Source of the DNA: a virus
Direction: 5' to 3' (one strand)
DNA length: 25,768 nt
IMG/VR virus record: IMGVR_UViG_3300042463_000558
Location: 1 to 25,768 of that record
Shown: positions 2,751 to 21,934 of the stretch, piece after piece
Layout of the letters: every line of letters starts with the position of its first letter
How positions within the stretch are numbered: the stretch's first letter is position 1
Translations under genes and position numbers: made by a program
The notes under the pieces: generated by a model
Database searches by the model: none
Told to the model about the DNA's origin: nothing
Seen by the model: the letters and a program-made list of their open reading frames with translations, nothing else

Positions 2751-4079
2751 ATGGGCATATTTGACCGATTCAGAACAGCACAGCAAAAAGCACCCGAGAT
2801 GGTTGAAGGGTATCAATCCTTTTCAACACCATTCCTCAACATTGGTGCTGGCAATTTATCTCTGCCATATGTAAATGGTAGAAACCAAACCACTGGATGG
2901 ATTCCATTTGGCGATTCAAATCTTTTTCCAAGCGTATTGAATCAGTTGGTATACTCATCGCCTCTGCATGGTTCCATCGTGGACTACAAAACCAACGCCG
3001 TAGTTGGTGGAGGAATTGAGCTTAAAACAACTACAACCACACCTCAAGAGCTTCTTGAATTGTACACATTCGAAAAAAAATCTCGATTAAAAAAGACAGT
3101 CAGAATCACAACCGAGCAATTGATTGTGCACAATCGTGTATACTTCAAGCTGTACTTCGATGATAAGATGAAGCTTACTCGAATGGAGAATGTATCTCCA
3201 GACAAGGTGAGAAGAGGTAGAGACCCACAAAACTATTTTGTGTGTGATGATTGGAGCAGCCGCATTGATGTGATGACAATAAAAAAATATCACCCAACGT
3301 GCACTGATCGTTGTCAGTTGTTTGTGTATGAGGTCGAGTGCTTGGGCCAAGAGTGGTATCCGCTGCCAAAATACACGAGTTGTTTAAATTTTGCATATCT
3401 CTCGGGCGAACTTTCGTACTTCGCAAAGAGTAACATTCAGAATAGTGTTTTCCCTTCATTTGCCATGATGTTCCCTAAGAGACCACAGAGCGAAGAGGAG
3501 AAAAACGTCTTGAGAAACACGATAGACAAGATGAAGGGAGCCGCCAACTCGGGCAAAGCTGTCGCATTTTTTGCCAACTCACAAGACCAGCTCCCGAAGA
3601 TTGAGAGCATTCCAACCAATCAAAATGACAAGATGTTCCAGGAAGCATCTGGACTCAACACAGAGCAAATCTGTTTTGCCCATACCATCGACCCTATCTT
3701 GATGGGTGTCCGCACCACTGGCTCACTTGGTTCTGGTAGCGATATCAAGCAAGCATATGTCATTTTTGAAAAGAATGTCGTGATGCCACTCAGAGAGCAA
3801 GTGGTTGACATCTTCAATGATATCCTTCGCATTGCCAAAATCAACGCAGATTTCACAATCAACAACTTCCAAATCATCAATGAGACCATCGTTGAAATCG
3901 AAGGAGATGCAAGCAAGACATCTGACGCACTTAACTCACTCAGCCCATTGGTTGCTACCAAAGTACTGGAGCAGATGACACCAAACGAGGTCAGAGCACT
4001 CGCATCACTTCCACCGATACCAGGTGGTGACATCACTCAAGCTCAAGCAGCAGCACAATCTCAAACACCTCAAGCGTAA
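2751..4079 (+). CDS. Portal protein
   Basis: A 442-aa protein that would form the dodecameric ring at the unique head vertex through which DNA passes. It shows the usual portal order: an N-terminal region with WIPFGDSNLFPSVLNQLVYS and SPLHGSIVDYKTNAVVGGG (the clip/wing start common in SPP1/HK97-type portals), a central beta region with VSPDKVRRGRD, a stem region with PSFAMMFPKRPQSEEEKN, and a helical crown with DPILMGVRTTGSLGSGSD followed by QAYVIFEKNVVMPLREQVVD. The C-terminus is Ala/Gln-rich. The stop codon overlaps the next gene's start (TAATG). Its position after, not before, capsid and tube genes is unusual, and it is about 13 kb from TerL. Confidence 0.9.
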   Translation: MGIFDRFRTAQQKAPEMVEGYQSFSTPFLNIGAGNLSLPYVNGRNQTTGWIPFGDSNLFPSVLNQLVYSSPLHGSIVDYKTNAVVGGGIELKTTTTTPQELLELYTFEKKSRLKKTVRITTEQLIVHNRVYFKLYFDDKMKLTRMENVSPDKVRRGRDPQNYFVCDDWSSRIDVMTIKKYHPTCTDRCQLFVYEVECLGQEWYPLPKYTSCLNFAYLSGELSYFAKSNIQNSVFPSFAMMFPKRPQSEEEKNVLRNTIDKMKGAANSGKAVAFFANSQDQLPKIESIPTNQNDKMFQEASGLNTEQICFAHTIDPILMGVRTTGSLGSGSDIKQAYVIFEKNVVMPLREQVVDIFNDILRIAKINADFTINNFQIINETIVEIEGDASKTSDALNSLSPLVATKVLEQMTPNEVRALASLPPIPGGDITQAQAAAQSQTPQA

Positions 4080-4645
4080 TGTTGTACTTTATCACAGAAT
4101 CTTATCTCAAGACCAACACACCCATCACAGCAAATGTGGATGTGACTGATGTGTTCCCCTATGTAGCCACTCAAGCACAGCTCCGAGTGATGCCGATATT
4201 GGGCACCGTATTCTACAACCATTTGCTTGAGGCATACAACGATCAAACGTTGACACCTGAAGAGGAGCAGCTTGTGTTGTTCATTCAGCCGGTCATCGCA
4301 TGGAGGTCTGCTGAAGATGCTGTATTTGGTTTGACCTATCAGCTCAAGAATAAAGGACTCCAACAGCAGAGCGGTGACTACTCGCAGCCAGTAGGTCGCA
4401 GTGAGGTTGCATTCGGCATGGAGCACTTCGCACAGAAAGCATCATTCTTTGAGATGCGCCTCATCAGATACCTGGTGAAAAACAGAGCAGAATATCCTAT
4501 CTTCATAAGCCATGAAAATCGTGACACCGACCTTCGCCCACAAATTGAGTGCGTGCAGTGCATCGGTGATTGCTTCATGAATGGTGTGTGGAATTGTGGA
4601 TATCCACGCAATAACGGATATAACAATCAAATGCTTGTCATCTGA
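4079..4645 (+). CDS. Head-tail adaptor/neck protein, DUF6712-like
   Basis: A 188-aa protein starting YFITESYLKTNTPITANVD, followed by a helical segment with VATQAQLRVMPILGTVFYNHL and a second one with EEEQLVLFIQPVIAWRSAED. This layout (short N-terminal strand, then helices) is what I recognise from the DUF6712 family found beside Bacteroidota phage portals, and it resembles head completion or adaptor proteins that bind the portal ring. The C-terminus is Cys-rich for a phage protein (IECVQCIGDCFMNGVWNC), which is odd and might bind metal or form disulfides. It starts within the portal stop codon and its own stop overlaps the holin start (TGATG), so translation is coupled on both sides. Confidence 0.65.
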   Translation: MLYFITESYLKTNTPITANVDVTDVFPYVATQAQLRVMPILGTVFYNHLLEAYNDQTLTPEEEQLVLFIQPVIAWRSAEDAVFGLTYQLKNKGLQQQSGDYSQPVGRSEVAFGMEHFAQKASFFEMRLIRYLVKNRAEYPIFISHENRDTDLRPQIECVQCIGDCFMNGVWNCGYPRNNGYNNQMLVI

Positions 4646-5070
4646 TGAAAAACAGCCTATTCATTTTGACCGCTTCATTCCTAACAATACTCGCACCAGT
4701 ACAACCAATGGTGTTGATTGCAATTCTTGCCATATTCATTGACACCATATTCGGAGTATGGCGCAGCGTAAAAAAAGGAGGCTGGCAAGCATTCAAATCT
4801 CGCAGACTATCTGATACAATGGGCAAGTCATTGCTTTATTGTGGTGGGATTGTATTCACATTCCTAATCGAGAAGTATATCGCTGGTGATATCATCTCTC
4901 ACTTCATCTCTGTGGAGCTCATCATGACAAAATTTGTGGCTTTCTTTTGCGTGATAGTGGAAGTCAAAAGCATAAACGAATCATATGAAAGCGTGACCGG
5001 AAAGAACATACTCGCTGCGATGCGTAAATTCGTCACACGATCAAAAGCCGAGCTTGACAACTGGAAGTAA
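4645..5070 (+). CDS. Holin (phage holin family, class with 3-4 membrane segments)
   Basis: A 141-aa inner membrane protein that would form the lesion letting endolysin reach the cell wall. Hydrophobic segments lie at about residues 4-17, 20-37, 62-78 and 92-107, separated by short charged loops; IDTIFGVWRSVKKGGWQAF is the typical loop after the second segment in TcdE/phi29-like holins (toxin secretion/phage lysis holin family). The C-terminus is basic and soluble (AMRKFVTRSKAELDNWK). It lies directly upstream of the amidase and spanin genes, completing a lysis cassette. It begins at an ATG sharing one base with the previous stop. Confidence 0.85.
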   Translation: MKNSLFILTASFLTILAPVQPMVLIAILAIFIDTIFGVWRSVKKGGWQAFKSRRLSDTMGKSLLYCGGIVFTFLIEKYIAGDIISHFISVELIMTKFVAFFCVIVEVKSINESYESVTGKNILAAMRKFVTRSKAELDNWK

Positions 5071-5107
5071 CTCCACTCGACTGCTCACTAACTGAACACC
5101 GAGAATC

Positions 5108-5135
5108 CCCCGATGATACTGTTGTCGGGGTTTAT
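5108..5135 (+). terminator. Probable weak terminator between holin and endolysin genes
   Basis: CCCCGA (5108-5113) pairs with TCGGGG (5125-5130) around an 11-nt loop and is followed by TTTATT. The T-run is short, so read-through into the endolysin gene is likely. Confidence 0.55.
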
Positions 5136-5169
5136 TAAAGTCCAGTTTATTGGACAAAAAACTTGACAA

Positions 5170-5817
5170 ATGGAATTAGATATCTCAAAAATCAAGCAAG
5201 TCAGACTTAAAGAGTCGCAGTATTTTGCAGAGGATTCACCCAAGAATCAAATCTATTTGCATCACACTGCTGGCAACGGCAATGCGGAGGCAGTCAGTAG
5301 GTATTGGAATGGCACCAGCGACAGAGTAGCAACTGCTTTTGTGGTTGGTCAAGATGGATTGATTGTGCAGTGCTTCAGCTCCAAGCATTGGGCATGGCAT
5401 TTGGGTATCAGTAAATCAGAATTTAAAGGTCAAGGTGCGCCATATCAAAATCTTGACAAGACATCTGTTGGAATCGAGGTCTGTAATTGGGGATACCTCA
5501 AAGAAAAGGATGGTAAATTTTACAACTATGTTGGTGCTCGTGTGCCTGAATCAATGGTCACCACTTTGGACGTACCATACAAAGGCTTCAAGCATTGGTA
5601 CAAATATACAGATGCTCAAATCGAAAGCACTCGACAATTGGTTGTGTATTTGTGCAAGACCTATGGCATACCGAATGAATATAGAGAGCAGATATTCTCA
5701 CTTGACAAGGATGCATTCATGGGCACTCCTGGCATATATACTCACAATTCGGTCAGAAAGGACAAGAGTGACATCTATCCATGCCCTCGAATGATTGAAA
5801 TGCTAAAGAGCTTATGA
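5170..5817 (+). CDS. Endolysin, N-acetylmuramoyl-L-alanine amidase (Amidase_2)
   Basis: A 215-aa zinc amidase that would cut the bond between N-acetylmuramic acid and the stem peptide of peptidoglycan. The Amidase_2 fold fills the protein: QIYLHHTAG (His31/His32 with the first zinc ligand), a VVGQDGLIVQCF strand, HWAWHLG (residues 73-79), SVGIEVCNWG (99-108), and GIYTHNSVRKDKSDIYPCP with His192 and Cys205 as likely second and third zinc ligands. There is no separate cell-wall-binding domain and no signal peptide, consistent with release through the upstream holin. The stop overlaps the spanin start as ATGA, so translation is coupled. Confidence 0.92.
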   Translation: MELDISKIKQVRLKESQYFAEDSPKNQIYLHHTAGNGNAEAVSRYWNGTSDRVATAFVVGQDGLIVQCFSSKHWAWHLGISKSEFKGQGAPYQNLDKTSVGIEVCNWGYLKEKDGKFYNYVGARVPESMVTTLDVPYKGFKHWYKYTDAQIESTRQLVVYLCKTYGIPNEYREQIFSLDKDAFMGTPGIYTHNSVRKDKSDIYPCPRMIEMLKSL

Positions 5818-6236
5818 GAAATTTAGTCACCATTCTGTCACTAATTGTGACAATATTTGCGACATCTTGCACCGCCAACTATCATGTGCGCAAAGCAATA
5901 AAGAAAGGATATCGCTGCGACAGCGTAGCTGATACAATTCGCATCACTTCAGTGGACTCTTTTCCCGTGATTGTAGACAATAAGATTGTGTATGAATACT
6001 ATCACACCACCAAGGATACAATCGTGCGCTATAAGACGTCTTTTGTGCCCTTGACAAAATACCAGGAGCGCATTCATTACAAGCTCAAGCGTGACACCAT
6101 TCGCCAGGTGCAGAAGATAGAGGTGGCAAAGTACAAATCACAGAAAGAAAAGCCCGTTTTTTGGGTGCTGATTCTTGGCTTTTTGGTTGGTATGGGTACC
6201 ATGTACCTCTTCAGATATTCTAAAAATAATATATGA
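5814..6236 (+). CDS. Probable unimolecular spanin (lipoprotein with C-terminal membrane anchor)
   Basis: A 140-aa protein with a lipoprotein signal (hydrophobic residues 4-15, then ATSC with Cys19 as the lipid site) and a second hydrophobic segment near the C-terminus (about residues 115-133, VFWVLILGFLVGMGTMYLF). An outer membrane lipid anchor plus an inner membrane helix joined by a periplasmic linker is the defining layout of unimolecular spanins such as T1 gp11, which fuse the two membranes in the last step of lysis. The linker is rich in strand-forming Thr/Val/Tyr and Lys/Arg. It sits directly after the endolysin gene, overlapping by ATGA, and itself overlaps the next gene by ATGA. The topology is seen in the sequence; the spanin role is inferred from it and from the context. 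Confidence 0.7.
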   Translation: MRNLVTILSLIVTIFATSCTANYHVRKAIKKGYRCDSVADTIRITSVDSFPVIVDNKIVYEYYHTTKDTIVRYKTSFVPLTKYQERIHYKLKRDTIRQVQKIEVAKYKSQKEKPVFWVLILGFLVGMGTMYLFRYSKNNI

Positions 6237-7111
6237 TTGTAAAAAAACACGCCAAGAACATCCACGAGATACAACTCGATGGCAGCTTGGTGAAGATAGC
6301 GATGCTGTCAGACCTCCATTGGGATAATCCAAAAAGTGATTGGAAGATTCTCAAGCGTGACCTCGACTATTGCCTTGAAAACAAAATCCCCGTGATGATT
6401 AATGGCGATATGTTTTGCCTCATGCAAGGGAAGGGTGATCGTAGAGGAAACAAGTCAGACATCCGACCAGAGCACAACAATGCAAAGTACCTCGACTCAG
6501 TGGTTGAGACAGCTGTTGAATGGTTTCTTCCCTATGCTCACATTCTGACTGTTATCGGATACGGCAATCATGAGACCGCAATCATCAAGCACCAAGAGAC
6601 CGACCTCCTTCAGCGATTCGTTGACCTTCTCAACTACAAAGCTGGGAGCAATGTGTTCACGGGAGGATATGGTGGATGGCTTATCGTGAAGCAGCTATTC
6701 AACGGCAATGTGCAGATGAGCACCAAAATCAAATACTTTCACGGCTCAGGTGGTGGAGGTGTAGTCACCAAGGGAGCACTCAACTTGACTCGTGCTCTTG
6801 AGATGTATGAGGACTTTGATGTGTTCACTATGGGCCACATTCACGAGAATGCTGCCAGAAACGATGTGCGTGACACTGTTACCTTCCATGCAAAGACTGG
6901 ATATCGTCACCATCATAAAGACATCCATCTCATGCTCACTGGTACCTATAAGGAAGAGTATGGTGATGGCTCCAAAGGATGGCACGTTGAGCGTGGTGCT
7001 CCAGTGAAGCCAACTGGAGGGCGCATCCTTGTCATTGAATGCAAAAGATATGAGGAGGATAAAATGAAAAAAAGCTCAAAGAGTATCGACTCAATGAAAT
7101 TTCCTTTGTAA
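6233..7111 (+). CDS. Calcineurin-like metallophosphoesterase
   Basis: A 292-aa enzyme of the dinuclear-metal phosphoesterase superfamily. All motifs are present in order: SDLHWD (Asp27, His29), INGDMF (Asp59), YGNHET (Asn112, His113), YFHGSGGG (His170) and MGHIHEN (His202, His204). The substrate cannot be read from sequence; relatives act on nucleic acids, nucleotides or phosphoproteins. The Gly-rich loop after His170 and the cluster RHHHKD (about residues 225-230) are notable. It is the last gene before two tandem terminators and overlaps the spanin gene by ATGA, so it is transcribed with the lysis cassette although it has no obvious role in lysis. Some Bacteroidota phages carry a similar gene near structural genes. 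Confidence 0.88.
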   Translation: MIVKKHAKNIHEIQLDGSLVKIAMLSDLHWDNPKSDWKILKRDLDYCLENKIPVMINGDMFCLMQGKGDRRGNKSDIRPEHNNAKYLDSVVETAVEWFLPYAHILTVIGYGNHETAIIKHQETDLLQRFVDLLNYKAGSNVFTGGYGGWLIVKQLFNGNVQMSTKIKYFHGSGGGGVVTKGALNLTRALEMYEDFDVFTMGHIHENAARNDVRDTVTFHAKTGYRHHHKDIHLMLTGTYKEEYGDGSKGWHVERGAPVKPTGGRILVIECKRYEEDKMKKSSKSIDSMKFPL

Positions 7112-7119
7112 CTTAGTGC

Positions 7120-7134
7120 CGTATTCATAATACG
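7120..7134. repeat. Perfect 6-bp inverted repeat
   Basis: CGTATT-CAT-AATACG just after the phosphoesterase stop codon. It may be a small RNA hairpin or a protein site; no T-run follows it, so it is not itself a terminator. Confidence 0.5.
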
Positions 7135-7142
7135 TTGTTTTG

Positions 7143-7169
7143 GGGAGCTTTCGGGCTCCCTTTTTTTTT
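7143..7169 (+). terminator. Intrinsic terminator, first of a tandem pair
   Basis: GGGAGC (7143-7148) pairs with GCTCCC (7155-7160) around TTTCGG, followed by nine T. It ends the head-lysis transcript. Confidence 0.92.
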
Positions 7170-7220
7170 ATATTTGTACTACTTTAGTAATTCCAAAACA
7201 AAGTAAATCAGATTTGATTG

Positions 7221-7248
7221 CCCCATTCTATACGGATGGGGTTTTTTT
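7221..7248 (+). terminator. Intrinsic terminator, second of a tandem pair
   Basis: CCCCAT (7221-7226) pairs with ATGGGG (7236-7241) around a 9-nt loop, followed by seven T. Together with the terminator about 60 nt upstream it insulates the early region from late transcription. Confidence 0.9.
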
Positions 7249-7354
7249 GTTTATTATATTATACCTAATCGGGTATATTCCGACTAAACTCACAATATAT
7301 TGCACCTTTTAGGGTACAATTAAGCGTATTTCACCAGCATTAAGTGTTTTGAAT

Positions 7355-7413
7355 GTCACAAAATCAGGGTAAAACCTGACGAAAATTGTAACAAAATCAG
7401 GGTAAAACCTTAC
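7355..7413. repeat. Direct repeat pair, 26 nt, spaced 33 nt start to start
   Basis: Copies at 7355-7380 and 7388-7413 differ at two positions and share the core ACAAAATCAGGGTAAAACCT. The first copy contains TCAGG...CCTGA, a short inverted repeat. The 33-nt start-to-start distance is close to three helical turns, which would place bound proteins on the same face. They lie about 50 nt upstream of the early promoter and look like operators. Confidence 0.7.
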
Positions 7414-7460
7414 ACTCTAAAAATAAATGTGAAAAAAAATAAAAAATTTGTTTACAAAAG

Positions 7461-7491
7461 TTTGCAGATATGCAAAAGAGGTGTATCTTTG
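7461..7491 (+). promoter_or_regulatory. Early promoter, Bacteroidota-type, with overlapping palindrome
   Basis: TTTG (7461-7464), a 19-nt spacer and TATCTTTG (7484-7491) match the Bacteroidota primary sigma consensus TTTG-N19-21-TAnnTTTG exactly. The palindrome TTTGCA-GATA-TGCAAA (7461-7476) covers the -33 element, so a bound regulator would block polymerase. Transcription would start near 7498, about 29 nt before the first small early gene. Confidence 0.85.
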
Positions 7492-7526
7492 TAAGGTCAA
7501 TAAGGCACAACAATAAAACAAACGAT

Positions 7527-7709
7527 ATGAAAACTTTAGTAACTGAAATCGAAAACTTACACACTGGCAAAGTAGAAACAAGCAAATCTTATGTCTTAGG
7601 TGTAAACACTAAAGAGCAAGAACAATCGCACTTGCAAAAATTAACAAATCAAATGTCTAAGATGCACTTAACAACCGACTACAAACTTTCACGAGTATAT
7701 TTTATCTAA
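7527..7709 (+). CDS. Small early protein, unknown function
   Basis: A 60-aa protein starting MKTLVTEIENLHTGKVETSK. I chose the ATG at 7527 because the upstream in-frame ATG at 7470 lies inside the promoter, before the expected transcription start; the chosen start has an A-rich leader. The protein is hydrophilic with basic and acidic residues mixed, has no membrane segment and no motif I recognise. As the first gene of the early transcript it is a candidate host-takeover or regulatory protein, an inference from position only. Confidence 0.6.
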   Translation: MKTLVTEIENLHTGKVETSKSYVLGVNTKEQEQSHLQKLTNQMSKMHLTTDYKLSRVYFI

Positions 7710-7727
7710 TCATCAAAACAATTTATT

Positions 7728-7913
7728 ATGGACAAACAACAAATTATCGACCTAATCAAAGCCACAGAGGCTGAACTCTACAAGGAGCTGCTTGAATGTT
7801 ATGAGTATCGTGACGCAAGAGATGCAAAAGATTTGGCTATATTCAGAGCATCAGCTGCTTGGTTTTCTGTTAATCAACTACTTGAAAAAATCGAAGAGAA
7901 TGAAAACAATTAA
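7728..7913 (+). CDS. Small acidic helical early protein, unknown function
   Basis: A 61-aa protein (MDKQQIIDLIKATEAELYKE...) predicted almost wholly alpha-helical, with regularly spaced Leu, Glu and Lys, so it may form a short coiled coil. Leader is A-rich (aaacaatttatt). Its end overlaps the next gene's start by 14 nt in another frame, implying coupled translation. Function not recognised. Confidence 0.6.
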   Translation: MDKQQIIDLIKATEAELYKELLECYEYRDARDAKDLAIFRASAAWFSVNQLLEKIEENENN

Positions 7914-9471: not shown

Positions 9472-11871
9472 ATGAAAGTTTCAATCTTTAAATCACTCTT
9501 TAACATTAAAGAGACCCCTTTTGAATTGTCCATTCAGGAGGTATACAACCGCATCAGACTCGGCAATCCTGAGCTCATCAAAAAGGTGTCAACCATACGA
9601 TCACTGGAGAAGGCTGACCCCGAGCATGACCGCCTCAAGTCGTCACTGAATGCCATCATGTTCAATGGTACCTTCACCGAGCGAAATGACAGCAGCTTGG
9701 TTGAGCATTCTGGTCTGTGCATTCTGGACTTCGACCAATATCCAACCAAGAAGCTGATGATGGAGGAAAGGAAGCGGCTGATTGCTGACCCCCATGTGAT
9801 GATGGTGTTCACATCGCCATCTGGAAATGGGCTGAAAGCAGTCATCAGAATCCCAAAGTCAGACAAGGTAGAGCACAAGCGCAGATTCACTGCATTCGGC
9901 AAGTACTTCGATAGCGAATACTTTGATGTCAAGAACAGCAACGTCAGCCGTGTGTGCTTTGAATCCTATGACCCTGACATATACTTCAATGAGTTCTGCC
10001 AGGTGTTCGAAGGAATCGAGCAAGACCAGGGCTTCAGCTACACCGAGCGCACTCCTATCTGCATCCTATCCGATGAGGACAAAATCATCAGCCTCATTGA
10101 GCGATTCGACCATGGATGTCAATTCGAGGAAGGTAGTCGCAATGAATTTGTGTTCAAATTGGCAGCTGTGCTCTGCGAGTATGGCATCTCAAAGGATACA
10201 GCAGAACAGTACATCTGGACCAAGTATGCTCAAGGCTCCAGCTTCAGCGAGCAAGAGATGGTCACAACCATTCGCTCGGCTTACAAAAAAGCCTCATACG
10301 GCATCAAATACTTCGAGGATAAAGATACCTTCCAAAGGGTACGTCAAAAGCTAAAGAGCGGCATCGCTGACGATGATATCAAGAAACAACTGAATGTGCG
10401 AGAGGATGTCATTGAGGACATCAAGAAAGAGATTCAGACTGGTGATGATATTTTCTGGTCGGTCAATGAGAAAGGCACGATCACAATCAAGCCATCCAAC
10501 TACTCTGAATTTCTGGTCAAGAACGGATTCAATAAGTACTATCCAGAGAATGCAGAGAAGCCAACCTTTGTCAGAGTCAAAGAGAACAAGGTCAAGATAT
10601 CATCGGCTGAACAAATCAAGGACTTTGTGCTGAACTATCTGCAAAGCAAGGGTGAGATGGATGTCTGGAACTACTGCTCCAGGAATGCATTCCTATTCAA
10701 TGAGAACTTCATAAATATGATTGATAGCATCAACATACTGATGCTTCAGGATAGCAAGAGCTCCTCATATATCCCATTCAAGAATGGAGTGGCAAAGATA
10801 TCCAAGAATAAAGTGGAGCTGAAGAGCTACATCGATGTCGATGGATACATTTGGGAGAATCAAATCATCGAGCGAGATTTCACTATGTTGGATGACTGCA
10901 CCAATGACTTCCAAGATTTTGTCAGCAAGGTGTCAGCAGATGATAGAGGCAGAATCAATGCGCTTGAGACAACACTCGGCTACTTGATGCACACATTCAA
11001 GGATAAGACTGACCAGAAAGCAATCATCTTCAATGACCAAGAAATCGATGACAACCCGAATGGAGGGTCAGGCAAATCACTCATGCTGGCAGCGCTCGGC
11101 AATCTGCGCAGAGTTGTCAAGATTGATGGCAAGAGCTTCAATCCATCCAAGTCTGATTTCGTTTATCAGCGAGTCAACCTGGATACGCAGATTCTGGCAT
11201 TCGATGATGTGCGTAAAGCATTCGACTTCGAGCAGCTATTCAGCCTCATCACAGAAGGAATCACCGTCAACAGAAAGAATAAGGATGAGATATTTATCCC
11301 ATTCAATCGCTCGCCAAAGATTGTCATCACCACCAACTATGTCATCAGTGGTGCTGGCTCTTCTCATGATCGCAGAAGGCATGAGCTTGAATTCTATCAG
11401 TACTTCCATAGCAAGCGCAGCCCACTCGATGAGTATGGTCGCCTATTATTCGACTCCTGGGGTGATGAGGATTGGTTGAAATTCGACAACTACATGGTCA
11501 AGAACCTTCAGAAGTACCTGACAAATGGATTGATGAAAGCCATCAGCATCAACGCAGATGCCAAGCGATTCATCCAGGCAACGTGCAAGGATTTCTTTGA
11601 TTGGGTGGAGGAAGGAAACCTCGCTCTCGATGTGTACCACTACAACGGCACCAAGATTCAGGAATTCACCTCCGAATTCACCTCATTCAAAGAGCTCGAG
11701 CCACGCAGATTCCTCAAATGGGTGCAGTCGTATGCTGATTACAAAGGACACAACATCACTAAAGGCCGAAATCACAACGGCAGATACTTCCTTCTCGAGT
11801 CAGGAACTCCCAAACCGACTCCAGAATCTGATGATATTTGGGATGAACTTAACGAAAAAGCGAAGCAATGA
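9472..11871 (+). CDS. Primase-helicase: VirE-N/BT4734-type primase fused to SF3 helicase
   Basis: A 799-aa replication protein. The N-terminal part looks like an archaeo-eukaryotic-type primase of the VirE-N/BT4734 group: HSGLCILDFDQ with the metal-binding pair Asp86/Asp88, FTSPSGNGLKAVIRI (residues 113-127) and SRVCFESYDPDIYFN (159-173). A helical PriCT-like segment follows (about 200-280). The C-terminal part is a superfamily 3 helicase: Walker A NGGSGKS (Gly531-Ser536), Walker B ILAFDD (Asp578/Asp579) and motif C PKIVITTNY (615-623) with a downstream Arg-rich SSHDRRRHELEF. The last 150 residues resemble a winged-helix end. It would prime and unwind DNA at the fork. It starts 19 nt after a promoter-like module and its stop overlaps the next gene by ATGA. 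Confidence 0.88.
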   Translation: MKVSIFKSLFNIKETPFELSIQEVYNRIRLGNPELIKKVSTIRSLEKADPEHDRLKSSLNAIMFNGTFTERNDSSLVEHSGLCILDFDQYPTKKLMMEERKRLIADPHVMMVFTSPSGNGLKAVIRIPKSDKVEHKRRFTAFGKYFDSEYFDVKNSNVSRVCFESYDPDIYFNEFCQVFEGIEQDQGFSYTERTPICILSDEDKIISLIERFDHGCQFEEGSRNEFVFKLAAVLCEYGISKDTAEQYIWTKYAQGSSFSEQEMVTTIRSAYKKASYGIKYFEDKDTFQRVRQKLKSGIADDDIKKQLNVREDVIEDIKKEIQTGDDIFWSVNEKGTITIKPSNYSEFLVKNGFNKYYPENAEKPTFVRVKENKVKISSAEQIKDFVLNYLQSKGEMDVWNYCSRNAFLFNENFINMIDSINILMLQDSKSSSYIPFKNGVAKISKNKVELKSYIDVDGYIWENQIIERDFTMLDDCTNDFQDFVSKVSADDRGRINALETTLGYLMHTFKDKTDQKAIIFNDQEIDDNPNGGSGKSLMLAALGNLRRVVKIDGKSFNPSKSDFVYQRVNLDTQILAFDDVRKAFDFEQLFSLITEGITVNRKNKDEIFIPFNRSPKIVITTNYVISGAGSSHDRRRHELEFYQYFHSKRSPLDEYGRLLFDSWGDEDWLKFDNYMVKNLQKYLTNGLMKAISINADAKRFIQATCKDFFDWVEEGNLALDVYHYNGTKIQEFTSEFTSFKELEPRRFLKWVQSYADYKGHNITKGRNHNGRYFLLESGTPKPTPESDDIWDELNEKAKQ

Positions 11872-16465: not shown

Positions 16466-16907
16466 TTTTCTCTCTCGCTGCATGGGCGATGAGAAGGCAC
16501 TCCAGGACTTTCCTGAGAATGACCAGCGATATGCTGTGTGCAATTCCTTGTGGGATGAGTCAAGAATGACCGCACTATCAAAGTACAGAGAAGCATTCGC
16601 AGAGAAAAGCTACTCAGACTATCCCGATTCGGTGCGCAACAATGCACGCAGAGGCATCGAGCTCAACAAAGAACTCGGCAACAAGTGCGCCACACAAGTC
16701 GGTAAGGTCAGAGGACAGCAACTCGCAAATCAAGAGCCCATTTCAGTGGATACAATCAAAAGGATGTATTCATACCTATCGAGAGCAGAGGTCTACTATG
16801 ACAACGCTGCACCTGAGGACTGCGGATATGTTTCATTCCTTCTGTGGGGTGGCAAAACGGGCAAGGATTGGGCAGAAAGCAAACTTAAAGGCTTAGGATT
16901 GATATAA
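16431..16907 (+). CDS. Protease-associated domain protein of the capsid/packaging region
   Basis: A 158-aa protein with two parts familiar from larger phage prohead protease proteins: an N-terminal DDFLSRCMGDEKALQDFPEN ...QRYAVCNSLWDE segment, and YSDYPDSVRNNARRGIELNK with CATQVGKVRGQQLANQ, IKRMYSYLSRAEVYYD and CGYVSFLLWGGKTGKDWAES. In many phages these segments occur in the same polypeptide as an XkdF-like protease; here they form a separate gene. No protease motif is present, so its role is probably structural or DNA-associated. ATG 16431 was chosen because the upstream ATG at 16356 would add a His/Gln-rich stretch overlapping the previous gene. The stop shares one base with the TerS start (TAATG). 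Confidence 0.65.
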   Translation: MPKPTPNETKDDFLSRCMGDEKALQDFPENDQRYAVCNSLWDESRMTALSKYREAFAEKSYSDYPDSVRNNARRGIELNKELGNKCATQVGKVRGQQLANQEPISVDTIKRMYSYLSRAEVYYDNAAPEDCGYVSFLLWGGKTGKDWAESKLKGLGLI

Positions 16908-17329
16908 TGGGAAGAGTAAAACACATAGAAACACCTGAAGATATGTGGCAACTCTTTGTTGAGTTCCGCAAATGGGTCAAAGACAATCCGAGATACCAGT
17001 ATCAGCTCTCAAATAAGACTGGAGAGCCTGTGCCGGTACCGCTCGAGAGACCACTTACAATGGTTGGATTCCGTTCATGGGCAGCAGAGAAGCATAAGAG
17101 CGTGGAAGATTACTTTGCGAATAGCGAGGGGAGATATTCAGCTTACGCCACAATCTGTCGCACGATAGAGGCAACCATCAAGCAAGACCAAATCGAGGGA
17201 GGCATGGCTGGGCAGTACAACCCTTCCATCACTCAGCGACTGAATGGTCTGACTGAAAAGACTGACATCACATCTGGAGGGCAAAGCATCTCCGAGGTGA
17301 AGGTGAACATAATTAGACCTACTGAATAG
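16907..17329 (+). CDS. Terminase small subunit (P22 gp3-like)
   Basis: A 140-aa protein that would recognise packaging sites on concatemeric phage DNA and regulate TerL. Landmarks are TPEDMWQLFVEFRKWVKDNP, RPLTMVGFRSWAAEKHKSVE with an HTH-like segment, and DQIEGGMAGQYNPSITQRLN followed by LTEKTD, the central oligomerisation motif of gp3-type small subunits. It lies directly upstream of TerL. P22-type relatives package by headful from a pac site, which may lie within this gene or the hairpin after it. Confidence 0.82.
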   Translation: MGRVKHIETPEDMWQLFVEFRKWVKDNPRYQYQLSNKTGEPVPVPLERPLTMVGFRSWAAEKHKSVEDYFANSEGRYSAYATICRTIEATIKQDQIEGGMAGQYNPSITQRLNGLTEKTDITSGGQSISEVKVNIIRPTE

Positions 17330-17406: not shown

Positions 17407-18567
17407 ATGGCTGAAATCTCAATCGACAGCACTGTCATCTTCGAAAAGAACTACACTGCATTGGCTGACCCTGGTGTGCGCTTCATCATCAATGAGGGTG
17501 GAAGCCGCTCGAGCAAGACCTACTCGCTCTGCCAAATGATCGTGGTGTACTGCTTGCAGAATCCTGGCAATGTGGTCAGCATCGTGCGCAAGACATTCCC
17601 AGCTCTGAGGGCAACGGTGATGCGTGACTTCTTTGAAATTATGAAGGAGATGGGCATCTATGAGGTAACCAGTCACAACAAGTCTGAGCACATCTACACC
17701 TTCCCGAATGGAAGCATCGTTGAATTCTTTTCAGTCGATGATGAGCAAAAAATACGCGGTAGAAAGAGACATCTCGGCTGGTGCAATGAAGCCAATGAGC
17801 TGTGGTTTGAGGATTTTCAGCAGCTCAACATGAGGACCGAGCACAAGCTCATCTTCGACTACAATCCGAGTGAGTCAGCATCATGGCTGTACGAGCTGCC
17901 GATGGATGAGAGCATCATCATCAAGTCAACGTACAAAGACAACCCATTCCTTCCTGACAGCATCAAGCGACAGATTGAGGACCTCAAGCGCACCGATGAG
18001 TCGCTGTATCAAATCTATGCGCTCGGTGAGAAGGCCATCAGCAAGAGCAACATCTACTCGAATTGGTCATTCGTGAAGCATCGCCCGGCAAGGTTCGTCA
18101 ACTTTGTCTATGGGCTTGACTTCGGATACAATCACCCGACTGCCCTGATGCGAGTCTACTGGTGCGATAATGATATCTACATCGAGCCGGTGATATATGA
18201 GAGCTACCTCACCACGACCAACCTCATCGACAAGATGGGCGACCTTGGCATCGAGAAGCACGTCACAATCGTGGCTGACTATGCTCGCCCTGAAATCATT
18301 GCCGAGATGAACAACGCTGGCTATGACGTGCAGAACGCCAACAAGGTGGTCAAGAAGGGCATCGACAACATCAAGACCTTTGGAGTGGTGTGCGAGGATG
18401 AGCCACGCATCAAGAAGGAATACGAAAACTACAAGTGGAAAAAGGTTGGTGACATCATAACCGATGAACCCGTGAAGCTGTTCGATGATGCCATGGATGC
18501 CGTCCGATACGCTGCCACGCACATACGCCAGGAGTACTATACCGATGACAGCTATTTCGCCTTCTAA
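17407..18567 (+). CDS. Terminase large subunit (PBSX/Terminase_3 type)
   Basis: A 386-aa packaging motor and nuclease. ATPase: Walker A GGSRSSKT (residues 31-38), the coupling/adenine segment SIVRKTFPALRATV, Walker B LGWCNEANE with catalytic Glu128. Nuclease: Asp238 in VYGLDFGYNHP, Asp291 in TIVADYARPE, and Asp361/Asp364 in LFDDAMDAVRYA, the three acidic clusters of the RNase H-like fold. The EYENYKWKK segment precedes the last cluster, as in PBSX-like TerL. The portal it must dock to is encoded about 13 kb to the left. Confidence 0.95.
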   Translation: MAEISIDSTVIFEKNYTALADPGVRFIINEGGSRSSKTYSLCQMIVVYCLQNPGNVVSIVRKTFPALRATVMRDFFEIMKEMGIYEVTSHNKSEHIYTFPNGSIVEFFSVDDEQKIRGRKRHLGWCNEANELWFEDFQQLNMRTEHKLIFDYNPSESASWLYELPMDESIIIKSTYKDNPFLPDSIKRQIEDLKRTDESLYQIYALGEKAISKSNIYSNWSFVKHRPARFVNFVYGLDFGYNHPTALMRVYWCDNDIYIEPVIYESYLTTTNLIDKMGDLGIEKHVTIVADYARPEIIAEMNNAGYDVQNANKVVKKGIDNIKTFGVVCEDEPRIKKEYENYKWKKVGDIITDEPVKLFDDAMDAVRYAATHIRQEYYTDDSYFAF

Positions 18568-18603: not shown

Positions 18604-18876
18604 ATGGGAACAAATCTAATGGGCGAACTTGTCGCCGACATGGGCACATACATTGCCAACAACACAACCGAAGTAACTAACACCATCGACGCTATTGTCG
18701 TGCTTGAGGATACTGTATTCACCTCAATCAAAGTGGCTGGCACTGATGTCAAGTCAACGTACATCGCAGCGACTGGAACTGCCGTGAAAGCTGGTGCAAT
18801 CATCACACCGATCAACAACCTTCAGTTCAGCGGAGTGAAACTTGCAAGTGGTTCGGTTGCGTTAGTACTTGGATAA
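18604..18876 (+). CDS. Small structural protein, possible head or tail decoration
   Basis: A 90-aa beta-rich protein (MGTNLMGELVADMGTYIANN, then TSIKVAGTDVKSTYIAATGT and GAIITPINNLQFSGVKLASG). Alternating hydrophobic and small residues and a Gly/Ala/Thr/Val bias suggest a small beta-sandwich, as in decoration or fibre-base proteins. Its stop codon overlaps the next start, linking it to the spike-like protein that follows, so it may form the base or trimer partner of that spike. Family not recognised. Confidence 0.55.
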   Translation: MGTNLMGELVADMGTYIANNTTEVTNTIDAIVVLEDTVFTSIKVAGTDVKSTYIAATGTAVKAGAIITPINNLQFSGVKLASGSVALVLG

Positions 18877-20240
18877 TGTACGGCTTCGGATATTCACTTT
18901 ATAACCGCACTCCGTTCTTGGGTGGTGGTGGCGGATTTGACCCAGCTGCTCAGGCATACTTTGCGGCAACGGGCATCACTGGAGTAACGCAGCAAACTGC
19001 AATCAACAACTTAGTCAAAGGCCTCAAGACCGATGGCATTTGGTCGAAAATGAAGGCTGTGTATCCGTTTGTTACTGATAATAGGAATTTACTTGGATAT
19101 ACAGAACAATTTGAAAATGGTTATTGGCAGAAGTATTTGACAACAGTTACCGCAAATGCTACAACTGCTCCAAATGGCACATCTACTGCCGATATTGTTT
19201 TAGATAACGCAACAAATGATATACATTCAATATATGTAGGTCAAACAGTTTCAGCAGGTACATACACTTGGTCAGTATATGCTAAAAAACAAAATTTAAA
19301 TTATTTATATATTACTGCATATACAGGTGCTTATAATAGGACTTGGTTCAATTTAAATAATGGAACTATCGGCACTAATGCGGCAGGAAATACTGCTGCA
19401 ATAGAAAGTATTGGTAATGGGTGGTATCGCTGTTCAGTTTCAAGGACTTACACTTCAGGAACATTTTCATATGAACTTGGATTGAGTAATGCAGATAATG
19501 TATATCAATATGCAGGTAATGGAACAAATGGTGTTTATTTATGGGGCGCACAACTCGAACTCGGAAGTTTATCAACATACCAACCAATCGCAACAACACA
19601 ACAAGCATTCATTGCATCACAATTCAAATTCAACCTTGTCAATCCTGTTGACTCAGACGCTGCTTTCAGATTAGTATTCAACGGAGGATGGACGCATTCA
19701 AGTAATGGAGCTACTCCTAATGGAACTAATGGATATGCTGATACTAAATTTGTGCCGAATACACAATTGACATTAAATAGCGCAAGTTTTTCAGCTTATT
19801 CCCGAAATAATTTTACACCTGTAATCGACCAAAGTTGGGGTTGTTCAAGCAACAGTTCTAATTTACCACTTTTTGCTCAATCATTTGACCCTACAAAATA
19901 TATAAGGTCTTTTATGTATTCATACCTTACCCCTGATGCTATGATAAGCGCAACAGGGATAGATTTTTCAGGTTTATTTACAACAACAAGAACGGCAGCT
20001 AATAATGCTAAATTGTTTAGAAACACTACTCAATTAGCAGCAGTAACTACTCAAGCACAAACAACTCAACCAACGAATAATTTCTTTTTTGGAGCATTTA
20101 ATGGTGGGCCTGGTATAAGTAATTATAGTAATTTTCAATATGCTTTTGCTCATATCGGAAATGGCCTAACCGACACCGAAGCAGCTAACCTATACACCCG
20201 AGTTCAAGCATACCAAACCGCACTTTCAAGAAACGTATAA
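18876..20240 (+). CDS. Head-spike/receptor-binding-like protein with inserted carbohydrate-binding-type domain
   Basis: A 454-aa protein in three parts. Residues 1-70 are a Gly-rich N-terminus with AAQAYFAATGITGVTQQTA and GLKTDGIWSKMKAVYPFV, probably for attachment. About residues 71-235 form a jelly-roll domain of the phage head-spike type: NLLGYTEQFENGYWQK, ANATTAPNGTSTADIVLD, GTYTWSVYAKKQ, NGWYRCSVSRTY, NGVYLWGAQLELGSLSTYQP. The rest (QFKFNLVNPVDSDAAFRLVF onward) resembles a LamG-like lectin sheet and ends AFAHIGNGLTDTEAANLYTR. DNA for the two outer domains' middle part is very AT-rich compared with the N-terminal part, suggesting recent exchange. Role in host surface binding is inferred; no enzyme motif is seen. 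Confidence 0.68.
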   Translation: MYGFGYSLYNRTPFLGGGGGFDPAAQAYFAATGITGVTQQTAINNLVKGLKTDGIWSKMKAVYPFVTDNRNLLGYTEQFENGYWQKYLTTVTANATTAPNGTSTADIVLDNATNDIHSIYVGQTVSAGTYTWSVYAKKQNLNYLYITAYTGAYNRTWFNLNNGTIGTNAAGNTAAIESIGNGWYRCSVSRTYTSGTFSYELGLSNADNVYQYAGNGTNGVYLWGAQLELGSLSTYQPIATTQQAFIASQFKFNLVNPVDSDAAFRLVFNGGWTHSSNGATPNGTNGYADTKFVPNTQLTLNSASFSAYSRNNFTPVIDQSWGCSSNSSNLPLFAQSFDPTKYIRSFMYSYLTPDAMISATGIDFSGLFTTTRTAANNAKLFRNTTQLAAVTTQAQTTQPTNNFFFGAFNGGPGISNYSNFQYAFAHIGNGLTDTEAANLYTRVQAYQTALSRNV

Positions 20241-20488
20241 TGAAATTAGCAGACATCACAACCGAAGATATCACCACCTTGGTCGGACTATTGACTGAGG
20301 TGCAAAAAGACGAATTAGTCGGAGTTTACTACTCTGCTGATTCTATCTACAACCCTATTCAAGATATAGACAACAATTGGGTCATCTCAGTAGAGGAGAT
20401 GCTTTACACGACCAATCCTGAGACGTTATGGGTGAAAGACCTTGAGTTGATTGAGTACAAACCGAAACCATCACCAAGCCCTTTCTAA
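20240..20488 (+). CDS. Small acidic protein, possible spike chaperone, unknown function
   Basis: An 82-aa acidic protein: MKLADITTEDITTLVGLLTE, a VQKDELVGVYYSADSIYNPI segment and a Pro/Lys-rich end YKPKPSPSPF. Small acidic genes right after receptor-binding genes often encode assembly chaperones, but only position suggests this here. Its ATG overlaps the end of the spike gene and its stop directly abuts the next ATG. Confidence 0.55.
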   Translation: MKLADITTEDITTLVGLLTEVQKDELVGVYYSADSIYNPIQDIDNNWVISVEEMLYTTNPETLWVKDLELIEYKPKPSPSPF

Positions 20489-21934
20489 ATGGCACAAACA
20501 ACCATAGCATCACCGCAGACGTTCAGCCCAGCGTACAACCCATTGAAGTTCATCGTTGACTCAACCAACAAAGCGAAGGCTGGCTTCCGCTACATTTTCG
20601 ATGTGTATGCTGCTGGCACTGCAACCAAGATTGCGGAGTACAAAGTGCTCCCAACCTTTGGCACTGGCTATGGCGAGGAGGACCTATCCAAGCTGCTCCA
20701 GAGCAAAGTAAGCTGGGACCTTGACAGCATCAACACAGCGAGTTATGGCGCACCGAATTCGTACTACAATTATGATGTGTTCATTGGCGAGGAGTATGTC
20801 TATGAGGTAGCCTATACGAGCAGCTTAACGAATGCGAGTGGCAGCGTGCAAATAAACGTGACCAACTCATTCGCTGCTGGAGACCAGGTCATCATCACAC
20901 AAGCTGATGGTGGAGTGGCCAACCCACAGCTCGAAGGACTGCACACTGTGGTCAGCGCAACGGGCTCGGCATTCGTTGTCAATGTAAACTGGTCCACGAT
21001 CACGAGCGCAACAATCGATGGCTCGGTGAGCTACGCTGACAAGCGCAAGACCATCATCAGAGACATCACTGAGCTCGATGATTACACTGTGTTCAACGGA
21101 GCTTTCCGATGGGATGAGTGGACAGCATACGACAATCTCGACTTCAAGCTCAACGCACCAACTTCAAGATGGCTGACCAATCAACCGACATCATTCCAGT
21201 GCACGCTCGGCCAAGACCTATGGCTCAACCTACGCAACCCGAAAGGCACTGACCGCATCATCTTCCAGAACAGCAACGGAGCTTCATTCTACAAGGTGCC
21301 AAGCTCAATGGATGACATCCTTCAAGTGGCTGTTGGTCCGAACAACTACGGCACATTGGTCGGCACGGGCTCACTCATCGACAACACTGTTGAGTGGTAC
21401 GATGTATTCTTTGGCAACGGCTCAACGCTACCACAGCAAGACTCGGTCAAGTACCGCATCTACCTCGACAGACGTCCATCAATCAGCGAGCATGAGCTGC
21501 TATTCCTGGACCGACTCGGCTCATGGTCATCATTCTCATTTCAGCTGCGTGCATACGAGCGTGGAGATGTTAGCCGTGATATGTACAACAGAGATGTGGT
21601 CGGCTACGTCAATGCATCAGACGAGTGGACCTATACAACAGAGGACTTCGGCTTCAATACATTCAACATCAATGTCATCAAACGCATGGACCTCAACACC
21701 AACTGGATGACTCAAGAGATGGCGACCTACTTCGAGGAGCTGGTCACATCGCCTCAAGTATTCATCAAGTCGGTGAGCTACACTTGTGGTGATGACTTAA
21801 CCCCATCAAGCAGCAGCTATCAGCCCGTCATCGTGGAAAACAACGCATACGAGATGCTAAACCAACGCAATAAGAACTTGATGCGCCACTCAATCACCGT
21901 GCGCTTCGCAAACCAGGACAATATAAATGGTTAG
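20489..21934 (+). CDS. Tail/baseplate structural protein
   Basis: A 481-aa beta-rich protein. Landmarks are FSPAYNPLKFIVDSTNKAKA at the start, DYTVFNGAFRWDEWTAYD in the middle, HELLFLDRLGSWSSFSFQLR and YTTEDFGFNTFNINVIKRMD later, and a closing strand NLMRHSITVRFANQDN. Proteins with a 'FLDRLGSWSSFSF' block occur in tail modules of Bacteroidota siphophages; a distal tail or baseplate protein is likely. Residues around 105-175 (SGSVQINVTNSFAAGDQVII) may be an inserted Ig-like or carbohydrate-binding domain. Overlaps the next gene by 8 nt. Confidence 0.6.
   Translation: MAQTTIASPQTFSPAYNPLKFIVDSTNKAKAGFRYIFDVYAAGTATKIAEYKVLPTFGTGYGEEDLSKLLQSKVSWDLDSINTASYGAPNSYYNYDVFIGEEYVYEVAYTSSLTNASGSVQINVTNSFAAGDQVIITQADGGVANPQLEGLHTVVSATGSAFVVNVNWSTITSATIDGSVSYADKRKTIIRDITELDDYTVFNGAFRWDEWTAYDNLDFKLNAPTSRWLTNQPTSFQCTLGQDLWLNLRNPKGTDRIIFQNSNGASFYKVPSSMDDILQVAVGPNNYGTLVGTGSLIDNTVEWYDVFFGNGSTLPQQDSVKYRIYLDRRPSISEHELLFLDRLGSWSSFSFQLRAYERGDVSRDMYNRDVVGYVNASDEWTYTTEDFGFNTFNINVIKRMDLNTNWMTQEMATYFEELVTSPQVFIKSVSYTCGDDLTPSSSSYQPVIVENNAYEMLNQRNKNLMRHSITVRFANQDNING

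Follow-up and report, generated by a model that had tools for sequence, protein, structure and literature searches.

Does an AT-rich domain lying within a phage fibre gene record a recent acquisition, or does such a gene have another history? This question is raised by the fibre gene at 18876-20240 of the IMG/VR virus record IMGVR_UViG_3300042463_000558, whose whole length of 25,768 bases is referred to below as the window. A preliminary description of this DNA had proposed that a head-spike-type domain was recently inserted in this gene. Our analysis favours, with a probability of about 0.62, a virion adhesin, most likely a head spike fibre, made of a lectin with an optional plug-in domain, in which both cores are exchangeable and which belongs to a mobile cassette. 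A short N-terminal peptide of the fibre would dock into a small base protein on the capsid (p90, encoded just upstream), by analogy with the head spikes of the gene transfer agent of Rhodobacter capsulatus (RcGTA). A helical linker would then lead to a lectin domain of the ConA/LamG type, and an optional head spike fibre domain resembling carbohydrate-binding modules (CBMs) would be plugged into the loop that follows the first lectin strand. Glycans of the bacterial surface are the proposed ligands of both domains. The cores of these domains would be replaced independently by homologous recombination in conserved stretches, namely (i) the linker, (ii) a segment between the two cores (joint B) and (iii) the C-terminal end together with the small downstream gene p82, and whole fibre and p82 cassettes would move between unrelated phages. 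Scans of IMG/VR with the fibre, the terminase and a conserved downstream protein (p481) yielded 180 loci; relatives are named below by their locus (L followed by a number).

A head-spike domain predicted to lie inside a lectin

The insert belongs to the NCBIfam family NF048003.1, "phage head spike fiber domain" (GTA_spike_fiber). The match extends from residue 70 to residue 244 and covers model positions 7-177 of 182 (E = 3.5e-31; 109.1 bits for a curated cutoff of 36), which bears out the type of domain proposed initially. The PHROGs search placed the same residues in a tail-protein family (PHROG 5939 "tail protein", E = 7.7e-25), no Pfam family matched the fibre protein at E = 1 or better, and a search of PDB sequences with the fibre profile found none at E = 1. 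The edges of the insert (residues 67-246; nucleotides (nt) 19074-19613) were set by alignment with insert-less relatives, which read YPFV-GGTAsTH-KfNLkdPrD across the site. The boundaries between YPFVTDN and QFKFNLVNPVDSD announced in the preliminary description are right. Among the checks that it had suggested are alignment with relatives lacking the domain and structure prediction. Both ends of the gene align with those of such relatives, so the domain is a true insert, and the predicted structures display a discrete domain nested inside a lectin fold.

In the AlphaFold2 model of the window fibre (mean predicted local distance difference test score 72; predicted template modelling score (pTM) 0.63), the insert is predicted to form a CBM-like beta sandwich, with the tail fibres of Pa193 (9b45; Z = 18.2, root-mean-square deviation (rmsd) 2.7, 164 aligned residues) and E217 (8env_K; Z = 16.2, rmsd 3.0, 163 aligned) as fold matches. 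The remainder of the fibre (residues ~54-66 and 247-454) resembles ConA/LamG-like lectin domains such as domain 4 of an arabinanase (5hon; Z = 14.7, rmsd 2.9, 185 aligned). The insert-less fibre of L025, modelled alone (pTM 0.81), forms one ConA-like domain that includes the KAIYP strand (5hon; Z = 15.0, rmsd 2.9, 178 aligned, residues 52..254), and it also matches the tailspike of cyanophage Pan3 (9vyh_p; Z = 13.7, rmsd 4.9, 211 aligned, residues 6..267). Since the window remainder and the insert-less L025 give the same lectin fold, the insert is, in these models, nested in a loop of the lectin domain, the one behind strand KAVYPFV (its first strand), and is no bead on a string. The parts of the fibre and its two immediate neighbours, all on the + strand, are as follows.

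18604..18876, +: p90, 90-amino acid (aa) protein directly upstream of the fibre; open reading frame (ORF) whose stop codon overlaps the fibre start codon
18876-20240, +: fibre gene, ORF of 454 aa
18876..18926, +: putative N-terminal docking peptide MYGFGYSLYN..., residues 1-17, with alternating hydrophobic and small residues
18939..19073, +: helical linker and first lectin strand, residues 22-66 (...WSKMKAVYPFV); helices 23-32 and 37-52 and strand 59-63 predicted
19074..19613, +: inserted head-spike-fibre domain, residues 67-246 (NF048003.1, 109 bits; predicted CBM-like beta sandwich with fold matches); absent in L025 and L026
19536-19610, +: joint A, the last part of the insert
19611..19751, +: joint B, residues 246-292, conserved DNA that separates the two variable cores
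19752..20153, +: C-terminal ConA/LamG-like lectin domain, its variable core (residues 293-426), AT-rich and un-inserted
20154..20237, +: conserved C-terminal end of the fibre, residues 427-454, a conserved alignment block
20240..20488, +: p82, 82-aa gene downstream of the fibre, which travels with the fibre among phages

Capsid or tail

The alternative that survives best keeps the same fibre body but places it at the tail tip, with p90 and p82 as tail proteins. We regard this as a serious possibility, yet the less probable one, and the head spike is favoured roughly two to one. The best solved matches are tail fibres, PHROG 5939 is a family of tail proteins and several phage records name relatives tail fibre or minor tail protein, whereas the capsid is indicated by the curated name of the inserted domain and by the base of the Rcc01079 family (the base of the RcGTA head spike) that precedes the fibre in five relatives. 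Likewise, the gene lies between the terminase and genes leading to a tape-measure-like ORF, and in kin another class of fibre occupies this address, but the alternation of hydrophobic and small residues at the N-terminus argues for a head spike.

A loose family of p90-like proteins (ending ...SGSVxxxL/Y) precedes many of the related fibres. In L008, L010, L192, L210 and L328, the gene directly before the fibre encodes a curated "spike base protein, RCAP_Rcc01079 family" (63-71 bits for a cutoff of 28). These five proteins were picked for sequence likeness, and the other five of the ten proteins tested, window p90 included, had no match. Of 62 distinct fibre N-termini, 17 show the docking-peptide pattern (hydrophobic residues at three positions, separated by two small ones) close to their start, compared to 16 of 929 controls. 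The pattern is present in 10 of 21 fibres encoded behind p90-like proteins, in 3 of 5 behind Rcc01079-type bases and in 4 of 36 elsewhere. The window peptide MYGFGYSLYN fits this pattern, chosen after inspection, only loosely and has no conservation outside its own lineage. In L021 (5713-6771), a p90-like domain is maybe fused before an insert-less fibre (profile comparison, probability 78, E = 1.8e-5). Such a fusion may fit p90 as the fibre base, but it is a lead only since the comparison rests on a single sequence.

Several results weigh against the reading favoured here. The window p90 has no match in NCBIfam and its profile comparison with Rcc01079 gives a probability of 0.2; p90 was therefore rejected as a homologue of Rcc01079 and treated as a separate family without profile similarity, and its role as spike base is a putative one. 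A search of PDB sequences with the p90 profile returned two chance-level rows only (E = 1). The base profile is found in five loci only, the other upstream genes being unrelated or missing. The docking pattern was picked post inspection, is absent from 45 of the 62 N-termini and depends on start codons assigned by a crude rule. Furthermore, NF048003-type domains also occur in proteins annotated as tail fibres, which makes a tail location possible. On the same side of the balance stand, for the exchange of cores discussed below, (i) the small synonymous excess of the linker (0.447 vs. 0.406), (ii) the lack of an excess in most pairs, (iii) the near absence of excess at joint B of insert-less modules (0.472 vs. 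0.446, with the whole-gene expectation) and (iv) the non-independence of the pairs in the synonymous test. If the head spike assignment holds, it suggests where the unannotated p90-like proteins belong.

Presence, composition and probable exchange of the two cores

Five contigs besides the window (L103 to L107) are its nearest relatives (terminases 98-100% identical). The insert is present in four of these six contigs, window included, and absent from L103 and L104, whose fibres are 267-270 aa long. L107 carries it, and the L105 and L106 contigs carry an insert-bearing module followed by a second, insert-less linker and lectin module, which in L106 is cut by the contig end. The terminase and the downstream tail-gene proteins of the two insert-less contigs are at least 99% identical to those of the window. 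A single supported clade unites the window with L103, L104, L105 and L107 in the terminase tree as well as in the p481 tree, and within it contigs with and without the insert are interspersed (L106 was omitted, as its locus does not extend from one anchor to the other).

A single recent gain of the domain from an AT-rich donor would fit its absence from two contigs with nearly identical flanking proteins and its low G+C content (GC) relative to its flanks, but we consider it unlikely. The whole fibre gene of the window differs from that of these insert-less relatives: the linker (71%) and the lectin core (22% aa identity) have changed too, so that the difference is a replaced gene segment and no clean insertion. 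The mosaic, receptor-binding type of gene recognized initially and the true insert stand. Two other close contigs, examined in full, have the insert with different cores, and the GC of the insert is equal in phages of 35-46% GC. Moreover, among 157 linker-to-lectin junctions in distinct proteins, 122 are empty (20 residues or fewer) and 35 hold an NF048003-type insert, with no other insert or intermediate length at any of the 157 junctions from all fetched loci. Because the insert-bearing fibre used as query favours carriers, these counts are not frequencies in nature. All 35 inserts occupy the same junction and have similar edges (mostly TDN.N at the start and ..YQPI.TT.......Q.K.NL at the end), and the more distant lectin relatives (L013-L024) have the insert-less form. 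The common junction and similar edges suggest, at the sequence level, that the domain was inserted once, long ago, and then spread, the insert-less form being ancestral.

Tandem fibres are found in L105, L002, L010 and L106, as well as in L190, L202 and L211-L213: an insert-bearing module is followed, in the same ORF, by a usually insert-less one (10 distinct proteins with tandem modules). L210 has the insert in both modules of one protein. In L190, two complete fibre genes of the window type (287-2671 and 3692-6067) lie close together on one contig.

The base composition reported initially was recounted exactly (34 G/C of 60 at 18901-18960 and 13 of 60 at 19261-19320). The GC of the successive segments is 0.495 (18876-19073), 0.346 (19074-19613), 0.391 (19614-19751), 0.343 (19752-20153) and 0.476 (20154-20237), and these values place the AT-rich stretch at ~19074-20153, i.e. 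up to about 20150 as announced. However, this stretch is not one insert: it comprises the insert and the equally AT-rich but un-inserted core of the second domain (residues 293-426). Of all 1080-nt stretches in the record, 0.85% have a GC of at most 0.351. The other equally AT-rich place, near 7060, holds the record minimum on this scale (0.340). This second dip (7000-7750; GC 0.30-0.33, the lowest of the record) has no long ORF and is probably an intergenic or regulatory region ahead of the replication genes.

The low GC of the insert had been taken as a sign of recent acquisition. Since the un-inserted lectin core has a GC of 0.343 and the insert-less L025 and L026 have values of 0.311 and 0.343, this composition argument is rejected. 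Relatives that share both the domain and its composition, which according to the preliminary description would mark the domain as ancestral, do exist, and this speaks in part against a recent gain. The mean GC of the lectin core is 0.328 in both the 35 insert-bearing and the 115 insert-less modules, and that of the 35 inserts is 0.358 (sd 0.026). GC of the insert does not track that of the remaining locus (rho = 0.18, p = 0.31), and tracking is weak for the lectin core (rho = 0.27 in insert-bearing and 0.25 in insert-less modules), whereas the linker follows the locus (rho = 0.72 and 0.48, respectively). GC is below the background for 24 of the 35 inserts and for the lectin core of 31 of 35 insert-bearing and 101 of 115 insert-less modules. 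As their GC follows that of the locus weakly or not at all, the AT-rich cores resemble a gene pool that has a composition of its own. It should therefore be emphasized that AT-rich DNA inside a fibre gene is no evidence of recent import: these cores have ~33-36% GC in genomes of ~31-47% GC.

Compared to its conspecifics, the window shows 34-38% aa identity in the insert core and 22-26% in the lectin core. Compared to L002, a 36% GC genome whose match to the window is limited to the fibre and p82, identity reaches 46% and 58%, respectively. Between L103 and L104, identity is 97.7% across p90 and the initial third of the fibre; their lectin cores have nothing detectable in common, and identity returns (91.5%) from the fibre end. 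Phages whose remaining DNA is unrelated have 80-92% nt identity at joint B and at the fibre end with p82, the C-terminal end and p82 being continuous in blastn matches to other phages (80-91% nt). This low identity of cores between conspecifics, together with joint DNA in mid-gene common to phages with unrelated flanks, suggests that the two cores are exchangeable alleles flanked by conserved joints.

Synonymous identity was tested as the share of identical codons at identical residues, compared to the expectation from segment-specific codon usage, in 518 non-independent pairs of insert-bearing modules without detectable flank similarity. Joint B shows the clearest excess (0.560 vs. 0.462 expected), followed by joint A (0.583 vs. 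0.516), the C-terminal end (0.517 vs. 0.464) and the linker, whose values are given above; the insert core (0.501 vs. 0.491) and the lectin core (0.527 vs. 0.510) have almost none. Significant pairs (p<1e-4) number 48 of 518 for joint B compared to none for the insert core, one for the lectin core, three for the linker and seven for the end. In 45 of these 48 pairs both cores have p>0.01, and 20 of the 35 modules are involved. The small linker excess and the near-null result for insert-less modules limit the recent sharing of joints to this subset, which we read, from sequence comparison, as recombination through joint B in some phages with exchange of cores on either side. Two other versions of the test were discarded. 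A whole-gene codon-usage expectation gave an apparent excess in the cores too (e.g. 0.501 vs. 0.440) that nearly disappeared with segment-specific usage, the joint B excess staying. A set of nine backgrounds with a stronger joint signal (0.686 vs. 0.434) was set aside for the wider one, as its rows are near the window.

Receptor-binding surfaces evolve fast. Very rapid vertical divergence under selection, in which cores simply evolve faster than joints and nothing is exchanged, would agree with this and with the near synonymous saturation of most joint pairs in the wider sample. It is nevertheless improbable: the lectin core is closest to that of L002, whose flanks have nothing detectable in common with the window, and far less similar to those of conspecifics; joint B has a synonymous excess across unrelated flanks and the cores none; and the edges between L103 and L104 are clean. 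Finally, a DNA or RNA signal within the gene, such as a recombinase site, could explain, without recent shared ancestry, why the excess lies mainly at joint B in phages whose flanks are unrelated, but it is very unlikely given that insert-less modules with the same joint protein motif show so little (0.472 vs. 0.446).

The fibre cassette, its locus and comparable systems

The p82 protein is 85-98% identical in L002, L005, L006, L008, L009, L010, L011 and L012, and the portal proteins of those with a portal match (L005, L009 and L012) are 20-22% identical to that of the window. Among the loci retrieved with the fibre, p82 follows 71 of the 76 lectin-domain ORFs with enough downstream DNA; conversely, in loci retrieved with p82, a lectin-domain ORF precedes it in 57 of 60 cases. 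We propose that p82 is an assembly chaperone or a tip protein of the fibre. In L005, L011, L012 and L013, the fibre and p82 lie between homologues of two genes that are neighbours in the window (4079-4642 and 4645-5067), and the cassette therefore occupies two genomic addresses. At the address used in the window, kin whose terminases are 91-97% identical have fibres of other classes, and most of these fibres come with a small downstream gene of their own. In L030, L054, L101, L143, L153 and others, the spike domain occurs right after the terminase or p90, once or twice, in another fibre architecture; these fibres start with MSLLD.ASL and the terminases of the phages are ~89-94% identical. At the same address, L074 encodes, after a p90 homologue, a 203-aa protein ending in YLAVRTF (5154-5765), which we take to resemble C-type-lectin-like variable proteins. 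A 191-aa ORF lies between the fibre gene and the small partner gene in L131 (8585-9157); presumably related to GIY-YIG endonucleases, it could be a mobile element active at the fibre locus.

The gene order in the window is large terminase, p90, fibre gene, p82 and p481, and its end has a weak tape-measure match. Its other features are as follows.

2751-4079: portal protein
5170-5817: amidase
9472-11871: primase-like ORF
16907-17329: small terminase subunit
17407-18567: large terminase subunit
20489-21934: p481, conserved ORF of 481 aa

Although 78 IMG/VR loci encode p481, none of 50,697 phage records matches it, and the phage group of the window seems to be without isolates in that collection. 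The terminase search gave identities of at most 35%, the best match being a Thermoanaerobacterium phage, followed by Bacteroides and Parabacteroides phages; a host among Bacteroidota is a guess. A scan of genome contigs with the fibre alignment found one weak locus.

More broadly, and tentatively, these data could reflect a head-spike kit common to many unrelated, mostly uncultured phages, with a lectin body, an optional nested domain, a swappable N-terminal plug for at least two unrelated bases, a small partner gene, joints for the independent exchange of cores and an AT-rich pool of cores decoupled from the genomes. If cores do exchange separately at fixed joints, host recognition would change one sugar-binding unit at a time, docking and assembly being left intact. 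A change of host range through the putative glycan-binding insert, as the preliminary description had supposed, is plausible.

Literature searches of open-access full texts found no paper describing the nested arrangement, those directed at LamG in phages of freshwater Bacteroidetes and at the Pan3 tailspike being uninformative, and the nearest published analogues are the RcGTA head spikes and the evolved Dit (evoDit) insertions. The RcGTA head spike is made of the base Rcc01079 and the head fibre Rcc01080, and the latter binds capsule polysaccharide according to extracts of two reports (PMC7296036, PMC10218006). It shares with the window the NF048003 domain family, and with relatives of the window fibre both the base-then-fibre gene pair (five of them) and an N-terminal peptide of alternating hydrophobic and small residues (many of them). 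However, the window p90 is no recognisable member of Rcc01079, and the head-spike domain of the window is optional and nested in a ConA/LamG-like lectin. The evoDit of lactococcal skunaviruses likewise combines a structural protein with an inserted sugar-binding domain that some close kin have and others lack, and extracts of the report show that the insertion allows adsorption to hosts bearing exopolysaccharide (PMC10688798). There, the receiving protein is the Dit ring of another phage group and not a lectin fibre, and these extracts describe no swapping of two cores within the gene (PMC10688798).

The best solved fold matches to the insert belong to the tail fibres of the Pseudomonas phages E217 and Pa193. 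The E217 fibre contains carbohydrate-binding and lectin domains, and the phage uses the O-antigen (extracts of PMC10329688). In these long multi-domain tail fibres the domain is a bead, whereas that of the window is nested in the lectin. In the Alteromonas phages A5 and V22, a fibre and a small downstream partner are common to distantly related phages (extracts of PMC10579305). That partner is a chaperone of 195-240 aa compared to the 82 aa of p82, and the two modules are likened by arrangement. Lastly, recent domain shuffling in fibres and spikes is general among phage receptor-binding proteins, as stated in extracts of PMC10684548. The mosaicism of the window type differs from this general pattern in that its edges fall at particular conserved joints of one gene and its insert at one site.
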